A stretch of DNA of 10,713 nt, taken from contig JAGVKR010000450.1 of NCBI GenBank assembly GCA_020050375.1, positions 1 through 10,713 on the forward strand. Reading direction: 5' to 3'. Shown here in pieces: positions 850 through 10,581 of this stretch (position 1 is the first letter of the stretch; every line of letters starts with the position of its first letter). A model generated the notes under the pieces. The model searched no databases and was not told the origin of the DNA. It was given only the letters and a program-made list of their open reading frames with translations. A program made the position numbers and the translations under genes. The DNA comes from Planctomycetales bacterium. Lineage in GTDB: Bacteria; Planctomycetota; Planctomycetia; Planctomycetales; Planctomycetaceae.

Positions 850-1732
850 CCAGACGCACAATGCGATTCAGACTACGCGTCGTGACGTGTCTTGCTCCCT
901 TCCCCCCTTGCGGGGGAAGGGCCGGGGATGGGGGGGCGAACGTCAATCGGCCCTCCACTTCGACGGTAACTTTTCCGCGTCTTGCTTTTCGTGTCTTTCT
1001 TGGTTCCTCCCGTCTTTCCGGCCGCTTGTCGTTTTATTATTCCTCGTCACCGCGATTCCCCGACTCACCGCCGACGAGCCGCTCCCGACCGACGACGAGC
1101 CGCAACGATCCAAGCCGGCGGTGAAAGATCCCGCGCCCGCAGTCGACGACAAGTTGATCCGAGCCCTCGACCCGGCGGCGAAAGATCAGATCGAAAACGA
1201 GATTGCCCGGATGGAACGCGCCATCGAGGGGATGCGCCAGGCGAACAAACGCATCGAAGCCGACGACACCAGCGCCGCCACGCTCGAACTCCAACGCCGC
1301 GTGATTGAAGACCTCGAAAAGCTGCTCGAACAACTCAAGCGCGCGCAGCAGAACCGCAAGAACAATCCTCAGCCCCAGGGCCAGCAGCAAGAGCAGGGCG
1401 AGCGGCAGAAGCTCCCCAAACCACAACTCGACCCGCAGAATTCCGGGGCCCGTCCGCAGCCTCGCAATCAGAACCGCAACGAATCGTCGCAGCGCAACGA
1501 AGACGAGAAGTCCCGCGACGCGCAGGAGCGGCTCGACGCGGCGAAGGCTTCGCTCGCCGAGGAGTCCCGTCGGCAGCAGATGATCAAGGACGTCTGGGGA
1601 CACCTCCCTCCTCACCTCCGCGAAGCGATGCGCAACACATTCAGCGAAAAGTACCTGCCGAAGTACGAAGACCTCGTCAAACGCTACTACGAAGCCCTCG
1701 CTGAAAAGAACCGCAGCCGGTCGGAGAAATAG
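842..1732 (+). CDS. Secreted or membrane-anchored coiled-coil protein carrying a repeat in its N-terminus
   Basis: Encodes 296 aa from ATG 842, chosen for the AGGGAGG site and the 8-bp overlap with the upstream gene. Residues 17-38 are encoded by a copy of the GC palindrome also found at 2731 and are not expected in the native protein. A hydrophobic segment follows at about 54-72, with a possible signal-peptidase site near TA-DEP (residues 76-79). The exporting signal is therefore displaced about 50 residues from the start. Residues 108-172 are predicted helical coiled coil, 173-222 are a Q/N/P-rich low-complexity linker, and the C-terminus contains VWGHLPPHLREAM and YLPKYEDLVKRYYEALAE. I recall this type of C-terminal motif from planctomycete hypothetical proteins encoded beside large coiled-coil/VWA genes. 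The role is unknown; it is probably an envelope partner of the upstream protein. Codon use looks native outside the inserted repeat. Confidence 0.8.
   Translation: MNSQTHNAIQTTRRDVSCSLPPLRGKGRGWGGERQSALHFDGNFSASCFSCLSWFLPSFRPLVVLLFLVTAIPRLTADEPLPTDDEPQRSKPAVKDPAPAVDDKLIRALDPAAKDQIENEIARMERAIEGMRQANKRIEADDTSAATLELQRRVIEDLEKLLEQLKRAQQNRKNNPQPQGQQQEQGERQKLPKPQLDPQNSGARPQPRNQNRNESSQRNEDEKSRDAQERLDAAKASLAEESRRQQMIKDVWGHLPPHLREAMRNTFSEKYLPKYEDLVKRYYEALAEKNRSRSEK
895..951 (+). repeat. GC palindrome family, copy 1 (within coding sequence)
   Basis: A 57-bp stretch nearly identical to 2731-2787. It has a perfect 10-bp stem (897-906 with 912-921) and a 5-nt loop, followed by a G-rich tail and the flank CGAACGTCAATCGG, shared with copy 2. 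G-runs of 5, 3, 4 and 7 separated by 2-nt spacers (912-936) also fit a G-quadruplex pattern. It is read through in frame by the second coiled-coil gene, about 50 nt after its start codon. Similar LPPLRGKG-type translations are common in GC-rich genomes and mark this class of repeat. Confidence 0.85.
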
Positions 1733-2787: not shown

Positions 2788-2869
2788 GTTCATGAGCAGC
2801 CGTATTGTGTTCGACGAACGCGGAACTACGCGAGTCTCGGCTGAAGGTGGTTGTCCCGAGACGCTCCTT

Positions 2870-2910
2870 CCCCCCCACCCCGGCCCTCCCCCCGCAAGGG
2901 GGGGAGGGAG
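2870..2910 (-). repeat. GC palindrome family, copy 3 (reverse orientation)
   Basis: Reverse-complement member of the same family. It has a 10-bp perfect stem (2884-2893 with 2899-2908) with a 5-nt loop, preceded on the plus strand by the C-rich counterpart of the G-rich tail. It lacks the CGAACGTCAATCGG flank of copies 1 and 2. Confidence 0.8.
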
Positions 2911-3050
2911 AGAACAGCAACCGAAGGGTGGTCCGCGTCCGGGAAAACAGTCGTGTTTTTCCCATGCTCATTCGCGCCAACGACGCGATCCCCGATGCGC
3001 GGGGAAACTCCAACCGTATCGCACTATCGCACCACACACCGGCTGAATCC

Positions 3051-4154
3051 ATGCCCGATCCGCTCTCCTGCACCGACGCGCCCCTCGCCTGCCAACAGAT
3101 TATCCGGGTCGTCGAGCAGGTTCGCCTGGCGCGCGACACGTACCGCCTGCGTCTGGCCGCCCCCGACCTCGCCGAAGCGGTCGTGCCGGGGCAATCTTTC
3201 ATGATTCGCGCGCCCGGCGTCACGAACCCGCTGCTCGGCCGTCCCTTCGCCCTCTACGACACGTGGCTCGACGGCGCCGGCCGGCCGGCGGGGATTGATA
3301 TTGTCTATCTCGTCGTCGGCAAGATGACCACGCTGATGAGCGGCTGGACCGCCGGCGACCGCGTCGAAGTCTGGGGCCCGCTCGGCAACGGCTTTCCGCT
3401 CCCGACGCCAAAGCGCCTGCTGCTCGTCGCCGGCGGCATCGGCAATACGCCGTTCCCCGCTGTGGCGCGGGAGGCGCTGGGGCAGCGGGTCTATGGGCGA
3501 CGTCCGGGTATCGACGACGGCTCGTCCACCGGGCGGAGCGAGACGGAGAGACAGGGAGACGGAGAGACAGGGAGAAGCATCTCCCCCACTCCCCCACTCC
3601 CCCACTCCCCATCTCTCCGTCTTCCGCTCACTCCCTCGCAAATCACGTTCTGCTACGGCACGCGATCCGCCGACTACCTCGCCGGCCTTGACGACTTCGC
3701 CGCGCTCGGCATCGACGTGCGTCTCGCCACCGACGACGGCACCCGCGGTCATCACGGCTTCGTGACCGATTTAGTCGACACATGGCTTGAGGATGCGCGG
3801 GAAGATCTGGAAGAAAGTACGAGAAAGACAGAGAGACAGAGAGACGGAGAGACCGGGAGAAATATCTCCCCCACTCCCCCACTCCCCATCTCCCCGTCTC
3901 CCCCTCAAGCCTCAAGTCTCAAGCCTCAAGCCTCCATCTTCTGCTGCGGCCCCGAGCCGATGATGCACGCCGTCGCGAAGCTGGCGGCGAAGCACGCTGT
4001 CCCCTGCTGGCTGTCGCTGGAAACGCCAATGGCCTGCGGCTTTGGCGCCTGCTTCAGTTGCGTGACCCGCGTCAAACAACCCGACGGCCACTGGGACTAC
4101 CGCCGCACCTGCGTCGAAGGCCCGATCTTCCCCGCTGAAATGCTGGCGCTTTAG
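3051..4154 (+). CDS. pyrK: Dihydroorotate dehydrogenase electron-transfer subunit (PyrK-like) with two repeat-encoded insertions
   Basis: Encodes 367 aa from ATG 3051; the family is usually about 250-290 aa. PyrK carries FAD and a 2Fe-2S cluster and passes electrons from dihydroorotate oxidation by PyrD type 1B to NAD+ in pyrimidine synthesis. The flavin domain is at 18-118, with GRPFALYD (63-70) as the FAD-binding RPxx motif and VYLVVGKMTTLMSGW. The NAD-type domain starts at LLLVAGGIGNTP (123-134) and continues with FCYGTRSADYL and FCCGPEPMM (297-305). The C-terminal cluster ligands are C329, C334, C337 and C354, in the PyrK arrangement. About 35 residues (162-196) and about 40 residues (254-294) are encoded by copies of one repeat family, which accounts for most of the excess length. 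The frame stays open upstream to 2805, but that part is repeat-derived. No pyrD is visible in the window. Function is preserved only if the loops tolerate the inserts. Confidence 0.88.
   Translation: MPDPLSCTDAPLACQQIIRVVEQVRLARDTYRLRLAAPDLAEAVVPGQSFMIRAPGVTNPLLGRPFALYDTWLDGAGRPAGIDIVYLVVGKMTTLMSGWTAGDRVEVWGPLGNGFPLPTPKRLLLVAGGIGNTPFPAVAREALGQRVYGRRPGIDDGSSTGRSETERQGDGETGRSISPTPPLPHSPSLRLPLTPSQITFCYGTRSADYLAGLDDFAALGIDVRLATDDGTRGHHGFVTDLVDTWLEDAREDLEESTRKTERQRDGETGRNISPTPPLPISPSPPQASSLKPQASIFCCGPEPMMHAVAKLAAKHAVPCWLSLETPMACGFGACFSCVTRVKQPDGHWDYRRTCVEGPIFPAEMLAL
3541..3622 (+). repeat. Purine/pyrimidine hairpin repeat, copy A, inside pyrK
   Basis: The outer arms AGACGGAGAGA (3541-3551) and TCTCTCCGTCT (3612-3622) are perfectly complementary. 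The inner stem GGGAGA/TCTCCC closes on an AGCA loop (3570-3585). The left half has two tandem 16-mers (3541-3556, 3557-3572) and the right half has three CCCCCACT octamers (3583-3606). It is read in frame as TERQGDGETGRSISPTPPLP. Confidence 0.9.
3821..3902 (+). repeat. Purine/pyrimidine hairpin repeat, copy B, inside pyrK
   Basis: Same family, orientation and reading phase as copy A. The outer arms at 3842-3852 and 3889-3899 match at 10 of 11 positions, and the inner GGGAGA/TCTCCC stem closes on AATA (3855-3870). It has only one full 16-mer, preceded by degenerate GA-rich units, and two octamers. It is read as TERQRDGETGRNISPTPPLP. Confidence 0.9.
3904..3931 (+). repeat. Four tandem heptamers (CTCAAGC) inside pyrK
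   Basis: Four units of CTCAAGC, the second with T at the last base, directly abut copy B. They encode part of the linker QASSLKPQAS just before the FCCGPEP strand. This is a short tandem repeat of a type prone to slippage. Confidence 0.85.
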
Positions 4155-4183: not shown

Positions 4184-4302
4184 GAACGTCCAACATTCAA
4201 CGTCCAACATTCAACGTCCAACATTCAACGTCCAACTTTCAACGTCCAAAGTTGAATGTTTTCGTTCGGCGTTGGAAGTTGGACGTCGAATGTTGGACGT
4301 TC
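4184..4302. repeat. 14-mer tandem and inverted repeat cluster between convergent genes; possible bidirectional terminator
   Basis: Units of AACGTCCAACATTC start at 4185, 4199, 4213, 4227 (one change) and 4241 (diverged). Inverted units lie at 4275-4287 and 4288-4301. The 3rd and 4th units can pair with the inverted pair across a loop of about 34 nt, with one mismatch and one gap, giving a large hairpin. The cluster lies between the pyrK stop (4154) and the minus-strand epimerase stop (4312), where terminators are expected. No classical U-tract is seen, so the terminator role is inference. Confidence 0.8.
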
Positions 4303-4311
4303 GATGTTCGC

Positions 4312-5478: not shown

Positions 5479-5587
5479 GCGCAGTCGCGGAGCGACGACG
5501 TATTGTAGCCAGTGGCGCAAGCCACTGGAAAAACGGCAACGAGAATGCGAAGCCCCGGCAGGGGCGACGTCGAGCGCTCAATCCCAC
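5479..5587 (-). repeat. REP-like element R1 (transposase 3' end)
   Basis: This 109-bp sequence is repeated at 6275-6382 with few differences. It holds three hairpins: GTCGC/GCGAC with loop GGA, CCAGTGGC/GCCACTGG with loop GCAA, and GCCCC/GGGGC with loop GGCA. Its inner end, GTGGGATTGA on the minus strand, contains the last codons and stop of the transposase gene. Confidence 0.9.
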
Positions 5588-6030
5588 AAATACCGCTCGT
5601 CGTATTCGATCTGATTCTTCTTCAGCAGCGAAACAAGCTCCTCCTGAAACGTCGCCCTCCGATGGTGCCGCTCCTGTGTCTGAATGTATTTCCGCACCCG
5701 ATCGACCTGCGACTGGCTGACTGTAAATGCACCGTATCCCGTCTGCCATGCGAATCGCCGATCGAAATCGGGCCGCTCGTGAATCCACTTTGACGACTTG
5801 GATTTGATTGTCCGCAACAGCGTGGCGATGGCAAGATCGGCAGGCAACTTCACAAGCAGATGCACGTGGTCCGGCATTCCGCCGCATTCGAGCAGGATGC
5901 CGCCTTCGTCACGAATTGCGCCACCGAGATACGGATACAATTCGTCGCGCAGGTCCGGGGTGATGAATTCGCGGCGATGTTTGGTGCTGAAGACGAGATG
6001 GTAGAGCAGATTCGTATACGTGGATGGCAT
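5578..6030 (-). CDS. IS200/IS605-like HUH Y1 transposase (TnpA / RAYT type)
   Basis: Encodes 150 aa, the usual size for an IS200-type TnpA. It is a single-strand DNA nuclease that cuts at hairpin-marked ends through a 5'-phosphotyrosine link. The HUH motif is H55-V56-H57 within GGMPDHVHLLV. The likely catalytic tyrosine is Y115 in RVRKYIQTQERHH, with Q119 in the metal-binding position of the same helix. The N-terminus YTNLLYHLVFSTKHRREFI is the typical first strand of the family. The C-terminus KKNQIEYDERYLWD is complete and lies in the flanking repeat. ATG 6030 is chosen over 6087 because family proteins start at this point. All visible motifs are intact, so the enzyme may be active. No TnpB or IscB partner is present. 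I assign the family firmly; the RAYT subgroup is inferred from the REP-like flanks. Confidence 0.93.
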   Translation of the reverse strand: MPSTYTNLLYHLVFSTKHRREFITPDLRDELYPYLGGAIRDEGGILLECGGMPDHVHLLVKLPADLAIATLLRTIKSKSSKWIHERPDFDRRFAWQTGYGAFTVSQSQVDRVRKYIQTQERHHRRATFQEELVSLLKKNQIEYDERYLWD

Positions 6031-6110
6031 CGTGTTGGCCCTTTCGGTTCCAGAGAAACGGGGTGTTTGATTGAGGCTGATCGGCACAGGTGTGCCGTAT
6101 TCAAGGCAAT

Positions 6111-6157
6111 CCAGTGGCTTGCGCCACTGGCTAAATCACGCCGTCGCTCCGCGACTG
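6111..6157 (+). repeat. REP-like element R3 (inverted half copy upstream of the transposase)
   Basis: 47 bp matching the reverse complement of the outer halves of R1 (5482-5528) and R2 (6278-6324). It includes the CCAGTGGC/GCCACTGG hairpin (loop TTGC on this strand) and the CGTCGC...GCGAC hairpin; the link between them differs. It lies 81 bp upstream of the transposase start. Positions 6158-6274 contain only a small GTGG/CCAC hairpin near 6202 and no gene. Confidence 0.85.
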
Positions 6158-6274: not shown

Positions 6275-6382
6275 GCGCAGTCGCGGAGCGACGACGTACT
6301 GTAGCCAGTGGCGCAAGCCACTGGAAAACGGCCACGAGAATGCGGAGCCCCGGCAGGGGCGACGTAGAGCCCTCAATCCCAC
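6275..6382 (-). repeat. REP-like element R2 (solo copy of the transposase 3' end)
   Basis: 108 bp, with the same three hairpins as R1 and the same inner end. On the minus strand the stop codon of the beta-propeller gene (6383-6385) is followed at once by GTGGGATTGA, the end of the shared block. It looks like a non-autonomous unit that the transposase could move in trans. It may also serve as a 3' hairpin for the beta-propeller transcript. Confidence 0.88.
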
Positions 6383-10149: not shown

Positions 10150-10254
10150 GACCACGGAATACACCGAACACACGGAAAAGGAGGGCGGACGACCGAGCAG
10201 ATCACTCCGTCATCGTCTCGGATTTCTTCCGTGTCTTCGGTGTATTCTGTGGTC
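10150..10254. repeat. Long inverted repeat with 28-bp arms
   Basis: Arms 10150-10177 and 10227-10254 are complementary at 26 of 28 positions around a 49-nt loop. The arms are AC-rich, around ACGGAATACACCGAA, and translate in one frame as TTEYTEHTEKE, a signature I recall from dispersed repeats in planctomycete and similar genomes. Confidence 0.85.
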
Positions 10255-10450
10255 AGTCCCCTGTGTCGATTGAAATCTTCGCGCCGCGCGCAGATTCGAA
10301 ATGTTGGTTACACCTGGTTTGTAATCCGAGGCGAAGTCGCCAAAGCGGAGGAGGGCCATCGGATTCGACCAGCGGTGGCCCCAAGACCGTGAACGGCGCG
10401 CGTCGGCGTTTCATTCAACGCGTTCACTCGCGCCAATGAATACGAAAATC

Positions 10451-10494
10451 ACCCTCACCCCCAGCCCCTCTCCCATCGAGGGAGAGGGGAGAAG
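10451..10494 (-). repeat. GC palindrome family, copy 5 (reverse orientation)
   Basis: CCCTCACCCCCAG flank followed by a perfect 10-bp stem (10465-10474 with 10480-10489) and a 5-nt loop. It has the same architecture as copies 1-3 but different stem bases (CCCCTCTCCC). It lies downstream of the minus-strand gene at the right edge and may sit at its 3' end. Confidence 0.75.
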
Positions 10495-10581
10495 CAGGCT
10501 TGCTGCCAGGGAGGTAACGGAGATCAGCGCGAAGAGCGCTTCCCGTTTCGCCGTCGAGCTTACTCGTCGCGCGTCGCCGAA

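Follow-up and report, generated by a model that had tools for sequence, protein, structure and literature searches.

In-frame copies of a dispersed octanucleotide-unit repeat in two loops of a planctomycete PyrK

The pyrK gene of a Planctomycetales bacterium raises the question of how two copies of one repeat came to lie in frame within a housekeeping gene, and of what becomes of the protein that is translated through them. The gene stands in a stretch of 10,713 nucleotides (contig JAGVKR010000450.1, C116 in our numbering; hereafter the window) from a MAG whose 4.38-Mb assembly comprises 845 contigs and is 66.6% complete. An earlier note, made from the sequence alone, had read the copies as a mobile palindromic element tolerated inside PyrK. 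According to the analysis presented here, they are very probably copies of a dispersed, lineage-specific, quasi-palindromic repeat of 8-nt units, lodged in a pair of permissive loops within the NAD domain of PyrK, with the enzyme left working. The relevant features of the gene are as follows.

3051-4154, plus strand: pyrK, dihydroorotate dehydrogenase electron-transfer subunit, assigned from Pfam, NCBIfam, orthologue alignment and an AlphaFold model; likely start ATG 3051, placed from relatives; stop codon 4152-4154
3432-3452, plus strand: GGIGNTP, NAD-domain motif, intact, upstream of insert A (sequence and orthologue alignment)
3536-3637, plus strand: copy A, an octanucleotide-unit quasi-palindrome with arms at 3541-3574 and 3589-3622, read as SETERQGDGETGRSISPTPPLPHSPSLRLPLTPS (repeat search; site-A spacer of 66 aa against a mode of 30)
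3821-3902, plus strand: copy B of the octanucleotide-unit repeat, hairpin core 3833-3900, read as KTERQRDGETGRNISPTPPLPISPSP (86% identical to A; site-B spacer of 97 aa)
3903-3931, plus strand: repeat arm from another dispersed family, built of 7-nt units (CTCAAGCCTCAAGTCTCAAGCC) and translated as QASSLKPQAS (13-mer count in the same genome)
4035-4112, plus strand: 2Fe-2S cysteine cluster, C328, C333, C336 and C353 in model numbering, intact (Pfam DHODB_Fe-S_bind at residues 323-364; invariant columns)

A single open frame (2796-4151, plus strand) holds both repeat copies and encodes PyrK. Profile searches match the product to Pfam DHODB_Fe-S_bind with an E-value of 7.5e-14, and the FAD, NAD and 2Fe-2S motifs of a dihydroorotate dehydrogenase electron-transfer subunit are all present; the PyrK-type models of NCBIfam match with scores below their curated cut-offs, and Pfam FAD_binding_6 scores 20.1 against a cut-off of 21.1. 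PF00175, which we take to be the NAD-binding Pfam family, has no match in the window PyrK, yet it is listed for most of the best 120 related PyrK proteins, an instance of how profile searches lose proteins with such inserts. On either side of the inserts the family motifs are intact, a point of the earlier note that both the orthologue alignment and the invariant columns bear out. The protein core is under purifying selection, with pN/pS values of 0.21, 0.21 and 0.24 against three relatives (243 codons), and the enzyme is probably active, to judge from its sequence. A second, intact pyrK, which together with a non-functional gene here had been named as grounds for refutation, was not found in the 66.6%-complete assembly; the six other matches align with the repeat part of the gene, and one of them is copy B.

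The two copies had been placed correctly inside pyrK: in a repeat search of the window, positions 3536-3621 and 3821-3906 are 86% identical over 86 nt and form one family. Each copy consists of a purine-rich 5' arm of GAGNNNNN octamer units, a short loop and a pyrimidine-rich arm of complementary units, and what A and B have in common is this octamer skeleton, in which the 3' arm carries the complement of the 5'-arm unit. The hairpin cores measure 76 nt in A and 68 nt in B. The palindrome of copy A is imperfect, its arms being 76% complementary over 34 nt, and copy B is less palindromic than A, with no inverted-repeat entry of its own among the 25 longest of the 57 inverted repeats in the window. 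Against composition shuffles, the whole A spacer folds with z = -2.6, and the B spacer, at z = -1.1, folds hardly better than the shuffles. Inspection of the filled sites by eye showed neither fixed ends nor a target-site duplication at A or B, and no terminal tag or cognate transposase of the octamer repeat was found.

Insert B is composite, because the stretch directly 3' of copy B (3903-3931), made of 7-nt units of CTCAAGCC type, belongs to a second dispersed family. A 13-mer of this family has 50 matches in the same genome, some overlapping in tandem, against 14 for a reversed control pattern. The family lies in frame inside a YbeY domain and a sulfatase domain, between the domains of a second UvrA (UvrA-2), and in PdxA, where it adjoins the listed part of a domain match that falls into two stretches; at the end of one contig it is also in frame a short way into a PSD1 domain. 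Further short-unit repeats adjoin other repeats in the same way, namely a GGATTCA type (read IQDSGFG) in MnmE (G000:C745:1-768, L083) and a PSD1 gene, and a GACCGGG type (read GTGDRGP) inside PdxA; the other two loci are G000:C678 (L389) and G000:C83 (L342). Composite inserts are therefore not confined to copy B of PyrK.

The spacing of the PyrK motifs was compared across the family, with spacer A taken from GGIGxTPF to the YGxRS strand and spacer B from YGxRS to CGPEP. PyrK was found in 138 of the 150 family genomes, that of the window included; 110 loci were taken and 102 parsed. Spacer A has 30 aa in 78 of the parsed genomes and 27-39 aa in 96, against 66 aa in the window genome and 65 aa in G083 and G138, with one row mis-anchored and two lacking the anchor. 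Spacer B measures 55-59 aa in 92 genomes, 63-72 aa in seven, one of them the mis-anchored row, and 97 aa in the window genome, two rows again lacking the anchor. Measured against family modes of 30 and 56 aa, the added length roughly equals that of the inserts, as had been claimed, and in most family genomes the alignment gives far shorter spacers, without the inserts and with intact flanks. G057, the sole other genome of the same genus in the search, has spacers of 28 and 72 aa of unrelated sequence, with nothing extra at A and 16 extra residues of other sequence at B.

The exceptions are P0002 and P0003, the closest PyrKs after the window's own among the best 120 proteins listed from a search of 5.8 billion proteins (114 parsed). 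They are 74% and 72% identical to the window PyrK, have spacers of 48/77 and 55/84 aa, and carry ETER.../PPLP-like segments at both sites, shorter than those of the window. Among the 114 parsed proteins, window included, spacer A reaches at least 45 aa in six and spacer B at least 70 aa in 11, and some of these long spacers look repeat-derived. By this resemblance, the inserts are not private to the window genome, and at least part of them would be inherited. The insertions may be older than the divergence of these lineages and have degenerated since; otherwise, both loops would have been targets more than once. The objection raised at the outset, that close relatives might share the same residues at both sites as ancient protein sequence, thus holds in part: P0002 and P0003 have shorter segments, whereas G057 differs.

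The AlphaFold2 model of the window PyrK (55 sequences, mean pLDDT 82.6, pTM 0.82) is predicted to keep the PyrK fold, its best PDB match being 5ksw_B (TM 0.82 when scaled to target length and 0.60 when scaled to query length), with a further match to 1ep1_B. Both inserts are predicted to occupy loop positions. Insert A is modelled as a low-confidence loop between helix 134-141 and strand 197-203, with pLDDT below 50 at residues 153-167 and 170-185, and insert B as a helix extension (237-266) followed by coil up to strand 293-298. Low confidence is not specific to the inserts, because the 2Fe-2S loop (324-335) likewise falls below 50.

The octamer repeat is dispersed in its own genome, with 59 BLAST matches on 35 contigs at E<=0.01, a figure that exceeds the number of copies in that palindromes match both strands. 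A regular expression for the unit identifies 22 hairpin-form and 23 single-arm features (45 altogether) in the 180.8 kb of contigs with matches, a few of the single-arm ones possibly being chance. At E<=1e-4, with at most five candidates per genome scored in the rows listed, the repeat matches only seven of the 150 family genomes, the window's included, and G057 is not among them. Many copies lie at gene ends or outside recognised genes, and others stand in frame in conserved genes. In a UvrA-like gene (contig C390), the copy comes after the GVSGSGKSS motif, presumably Walker A, with domain matches on both sides; this site is not empty in G057, whose loop is comparable in length but differs in sequence, and several other relatives have shorter loops. 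In MnmE (C745), the copy lies in frame between the GTPase and helical domains, in a region of 46 aa against 6 aa in G008, and the MnmE of G057 is 19 aa shorter overall. Another copy is in frame between the domains of a PSCyt2/PSD1 protein (C62), and one lies downstream of the domain in a DNA-methylase ORF (C243). With the octamer or the 7-nt family in frame in two UvrA-like genes, MnmE, YbeY, PdxA and a sulfatase, the phenomenon is not confined to pyrK, and the genome-wide search suggested earlier has been answered by a dispersed repeat with in-frame copies elsewhere. A scan of 40 stop-to-stop ORFs touching or spanning octamer features gave a Pfam match in 17, and in none of these 17 was a domain seen to be cut at the repeat; at one or a few ORFs per feature, the scan could miss a broken gene. 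The C390 UvrA-like gene also holds two in-frame copies of a third hairpin family, 85% identical to each other over 136 nt and 80-98% identical over 42-60 nt to the copies of this family in the window (895-946, 2731-2782, 2870-2911 and 10443-10502); G057 is about 100 aa shorter in the stretch concerned.

Site A of PyrK has accommodated another hairpin in genus g57. Its genomes G083 and G138, together with the record Planctomyces sp. F1-80-MAGs005 (L271), carry a very strong in-frame hairpin at this position, with folding z values of -7.9, -7.4 and -6.9, respectively, in a survey of 190 loci, nine of them unparsed, whose rows giving 12 or 16 aa for spacer A are wrongly anchored. This g57-type hairpin encodes the 65-aa site-A spacers of all three; it is unrelated to the window's octamer repeat and far stronger as a hairpin, and one PyrK loop is common to both. 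Its outer arms are nearly unchanged among the three records and its loop has diverged, identity being 67-82% in the insert and 85-89% in the flanks. Because position and phase are equal in all three, a single inherited insertion would be the simplest reading. The element is multicopy, with 58 matches in G083 and 67 in G138 (both strands counted). In-frame copies sit within ThuA and PSD1 domains, immediately ahead of a further PSD1 domain, and in the interval separating M56 from HEAT-like matches. Of ten such ORFs searched against Pfam, one has no match at all, and not all have domains on both sides.

Particular weight had been given to the common reading phase of A and B. The two do coincide, with GAG ACA GGG AGA AGC ATC TCC at A and GAG ACC GGG AGA AAT ATC TCC at B, and the UvrA-like copy shares this phase; in the DNA-methylase and PSCyt2/PSD1 ORFs, the copies consist of a single arm and are read in another. 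As evidence, however, the agreement is of little value, being expected in one case in three, and all three sense frames are open in A and B, with similar peptides in each. An identical run of octamers gives cyclic forms of one peptide in any frame, because 8 and 3 share no factor; and because 8-nt units give related peptides in every frame, a common phase is weak evidence and no sign of coding function. The idea that the octamer repeat is specially open in all frames found no support: 93 of the 132 frames in the 22 hairpins are open (70%) against 63% in random stretches of the same lengths. In the g57-type hairpin, the left arm is read as an ARRGSPDPA-like peptide in ten of 11 ORFs, picked from 28 non-edge loci, and in eight of nine when two related pairs are each counted once, one pair being pyrK and the other two kinase ORFs with 67% identity across 593 residues. 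This bias is partly explained by stop codons, because over 19 readings of the element the ARRGSPDPA-like frame is open in 18, the second frame in 16 and the third in four.

For a dispersed repeat settling in permissive loops, the following course may be proposed. A dispersal process would bring copies of the repeat to many sites in the genome; copies with a net length divisible by three and free of in-frame stops would be translated as a hydrophilic peptide, with an ETERQRDGE-type charged arm followed by a Pro/Ser-rich arm; frame-keeping copies in loops would persist as largely disordered peptide while the enzyme keeps working; and gene-breaking copies would presumably be removed by selection. 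We infer arrival by dispersal rather than growth in place because the repeat is dispersed and because a multicopy element stands at the same PyrK loop in g57; selection would then have sorted the survivors. Of the mobile element proposed in the earlier note, dispersal, in-frame position and a functional-looking PyrK stand, and mobility is an extrapolation, no transposase, terminal repeat or target duplication having been tied to the octamer repeat.

The main rival is that the loops grew in place, a low-complexity linker having lengthened by slippage during replication and by fold-back copying of the template, with no mobile insertion; this we consider unlikely while granting it appreciable weight. 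Arms of tandem 7-8 nt units, variable unit numbers, copies that match by unit skeleton and not base by base, and related segments of other lengths in P0002 and P0003 would all suit such growth. Local growth alone, however, would not put one sequence into many genes, and the same arm-loop-arm architecture recurs at many unrelated places; the 7-nt family beside copy B is dispersed too, and in g57 site A holds the full hairpin of a multicopy family. A further origin is brought to mind by a transposase ORF in the window and the palindromes around it:

5578-6087, minus strand: ORF of a Y1 transposase
5483-5528, minus strand; 6111-6156, plus strand; 6279-6324, minus strand: Rfam Acido-Lenti-1 matches, flanking the transposase ORF

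That the copies are REPs or MITEs moved by a tyrosine transposase, such as this IS200-like Y1 protein, is less likely than growth in place. The flanks of the ORF are occupied by Acido-Lenti-1 palindromes and not by the octamer repeat, and at the stem foot A and B show, by eye, neither a GTAG nor a CGTC tag, both copies also exceeding 20-40 bp; what recommends the idea, beyond the presence of the ORF, is that planctomycete REPs have been reported, that GTAG REPs are hypothesised to be moved by RAYTs, and that intragenic REPs are known, all in the portion of the REP account drawn on here (PMC3733652). It is more doubtful still that the inserts represent ancient protein sequence retained because it serves a function, as a regulatory segment of the NAD domain might. 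The ETER.../PPLP-like pieces at both sites in P0002 (74%) and P0003 (72%) would fit, but length and sequence vary widely among close relatives, same-genus G057 has no insert at A, and the DNA belongs to a repeat family present on 35 contigs. A fragmented MAG of 845 contigs, 66.6% complete, might also be suspected of an assembly error, or the gene of being a pseudogene; this is very improbable, the frame being intact through both copies, the flanks aligning end to end with orthologues, the core pN/pS lying at about 0.2, and the P0002 and P0003 proteins showing the same architecture.

Taken as copies of a dispersed repeat, A and B are of the same kind as the in-frame palindromes of Rickettsia and the GTAG/CGTC REPs, and represent a new variant. 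Rickettsia palindromic elements (RPEs) are described as palindromic repeats within ORFs that keep the frame (PMC3767692, PMC3733652) and have a length of 100-150 bp (PMC3767692). RPE-1 and others resemble the window repeat in lying inside ORFs with the frame kept, and the latter occurs both in several genes and between genes; the parallel drawn in the earlier note is apt as an analogy, the likeness being one of description, across different phyla. The window repeat differs in being a variable tandem of octamers, with copy B fused to a second repeat family.

For GTAG/CGTC REPs, the consulted portion of the 2013 account (PMC3733652) describes copies in conserved genes, single genes that were entered twice (uvrA in O. 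terrae and Thioalkalivibrio, uvrB in R. conorii), a same-site case in recB of two Xanthomonas species, and planctomycetes among the hosts; pyrK is absent from that portion. Position inside conserved genes, double insertion in one gene and a same-site case are common to these REPs and the window repeat. The latter, in contrast, is untagged, longer and built of octamers, includes a composite copy, and shares one PyrK loop with an unrelated family from a different genus. It is not a 20-40 bp stem-loop with a tagged end, although CGTC does occur inside the repeat unit, and an Rfam scan of the window matched Acido-Lenti-1 only. The heptameric G-rich tandem repeats of Xanthomonas and Nostoc are, similarly, dispersed short-unit tandems in bacteria; the relevant excerpt reports them as under-represented in coding regions and does not describe them as in-frame inserts (PMC4692102). 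Within the open-licence literature, no description of octamer or heptamer hairpins in frame in planctomycetes was recognised, nor was one found of such an insertion in a planctomycete PyrK, in searches for which PyrK was not a term.

A broader proposition may be advanced tentatively, with belief falling somewhat short of even: that in planctomycetes a small set of permissive loops in housekeeping enzymes again and again receives short, unit-built hairpin repeats of several unrelated families, which are translated there, loop A of PyrK having taken at least two unrelated families in different genera. If this were true, repeat DNA would be a standing source of new disordered protein loops, beyond occasional tolerated junk. 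The planctomycetes considered here, with three or more repeat families in frame within conserved genes and two of them in a single uvrA-like gene, offer a comparative system for asking which positions in a protein admit new sequence and whether loops derived from repeats are no more than tolerated or eventually gain a use; the PyrK loops seem able to take up repeat DNA.

The window is also rich in other repeats. The stem of Acido-Lenti-1 is preceded by GTAG in two of the three matches (GTAGCCAGTGGC at 5505 and 6301) and by TTAG in the third, and this Rfam 'sRNA' may be a GTAG REP belonging to a REP-associated transposase. In a random contig sample, ten strong hairpins were found in the genome's own contigs (20 drawn, five of them masked to N, the masked rows dropped) and 14 in 12 contigs of G057, by a method that misses octamer hairpins with imperfect arms. 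An inverted repeat of 14-nt units (AACGTCCAACATTC) occupies 4185-4308, starting 30 nt after the pyrK stop codon, and another of ACCACGGAATACACCG type, at 10150-10254, has 28-nt arms that are 93% complementary.
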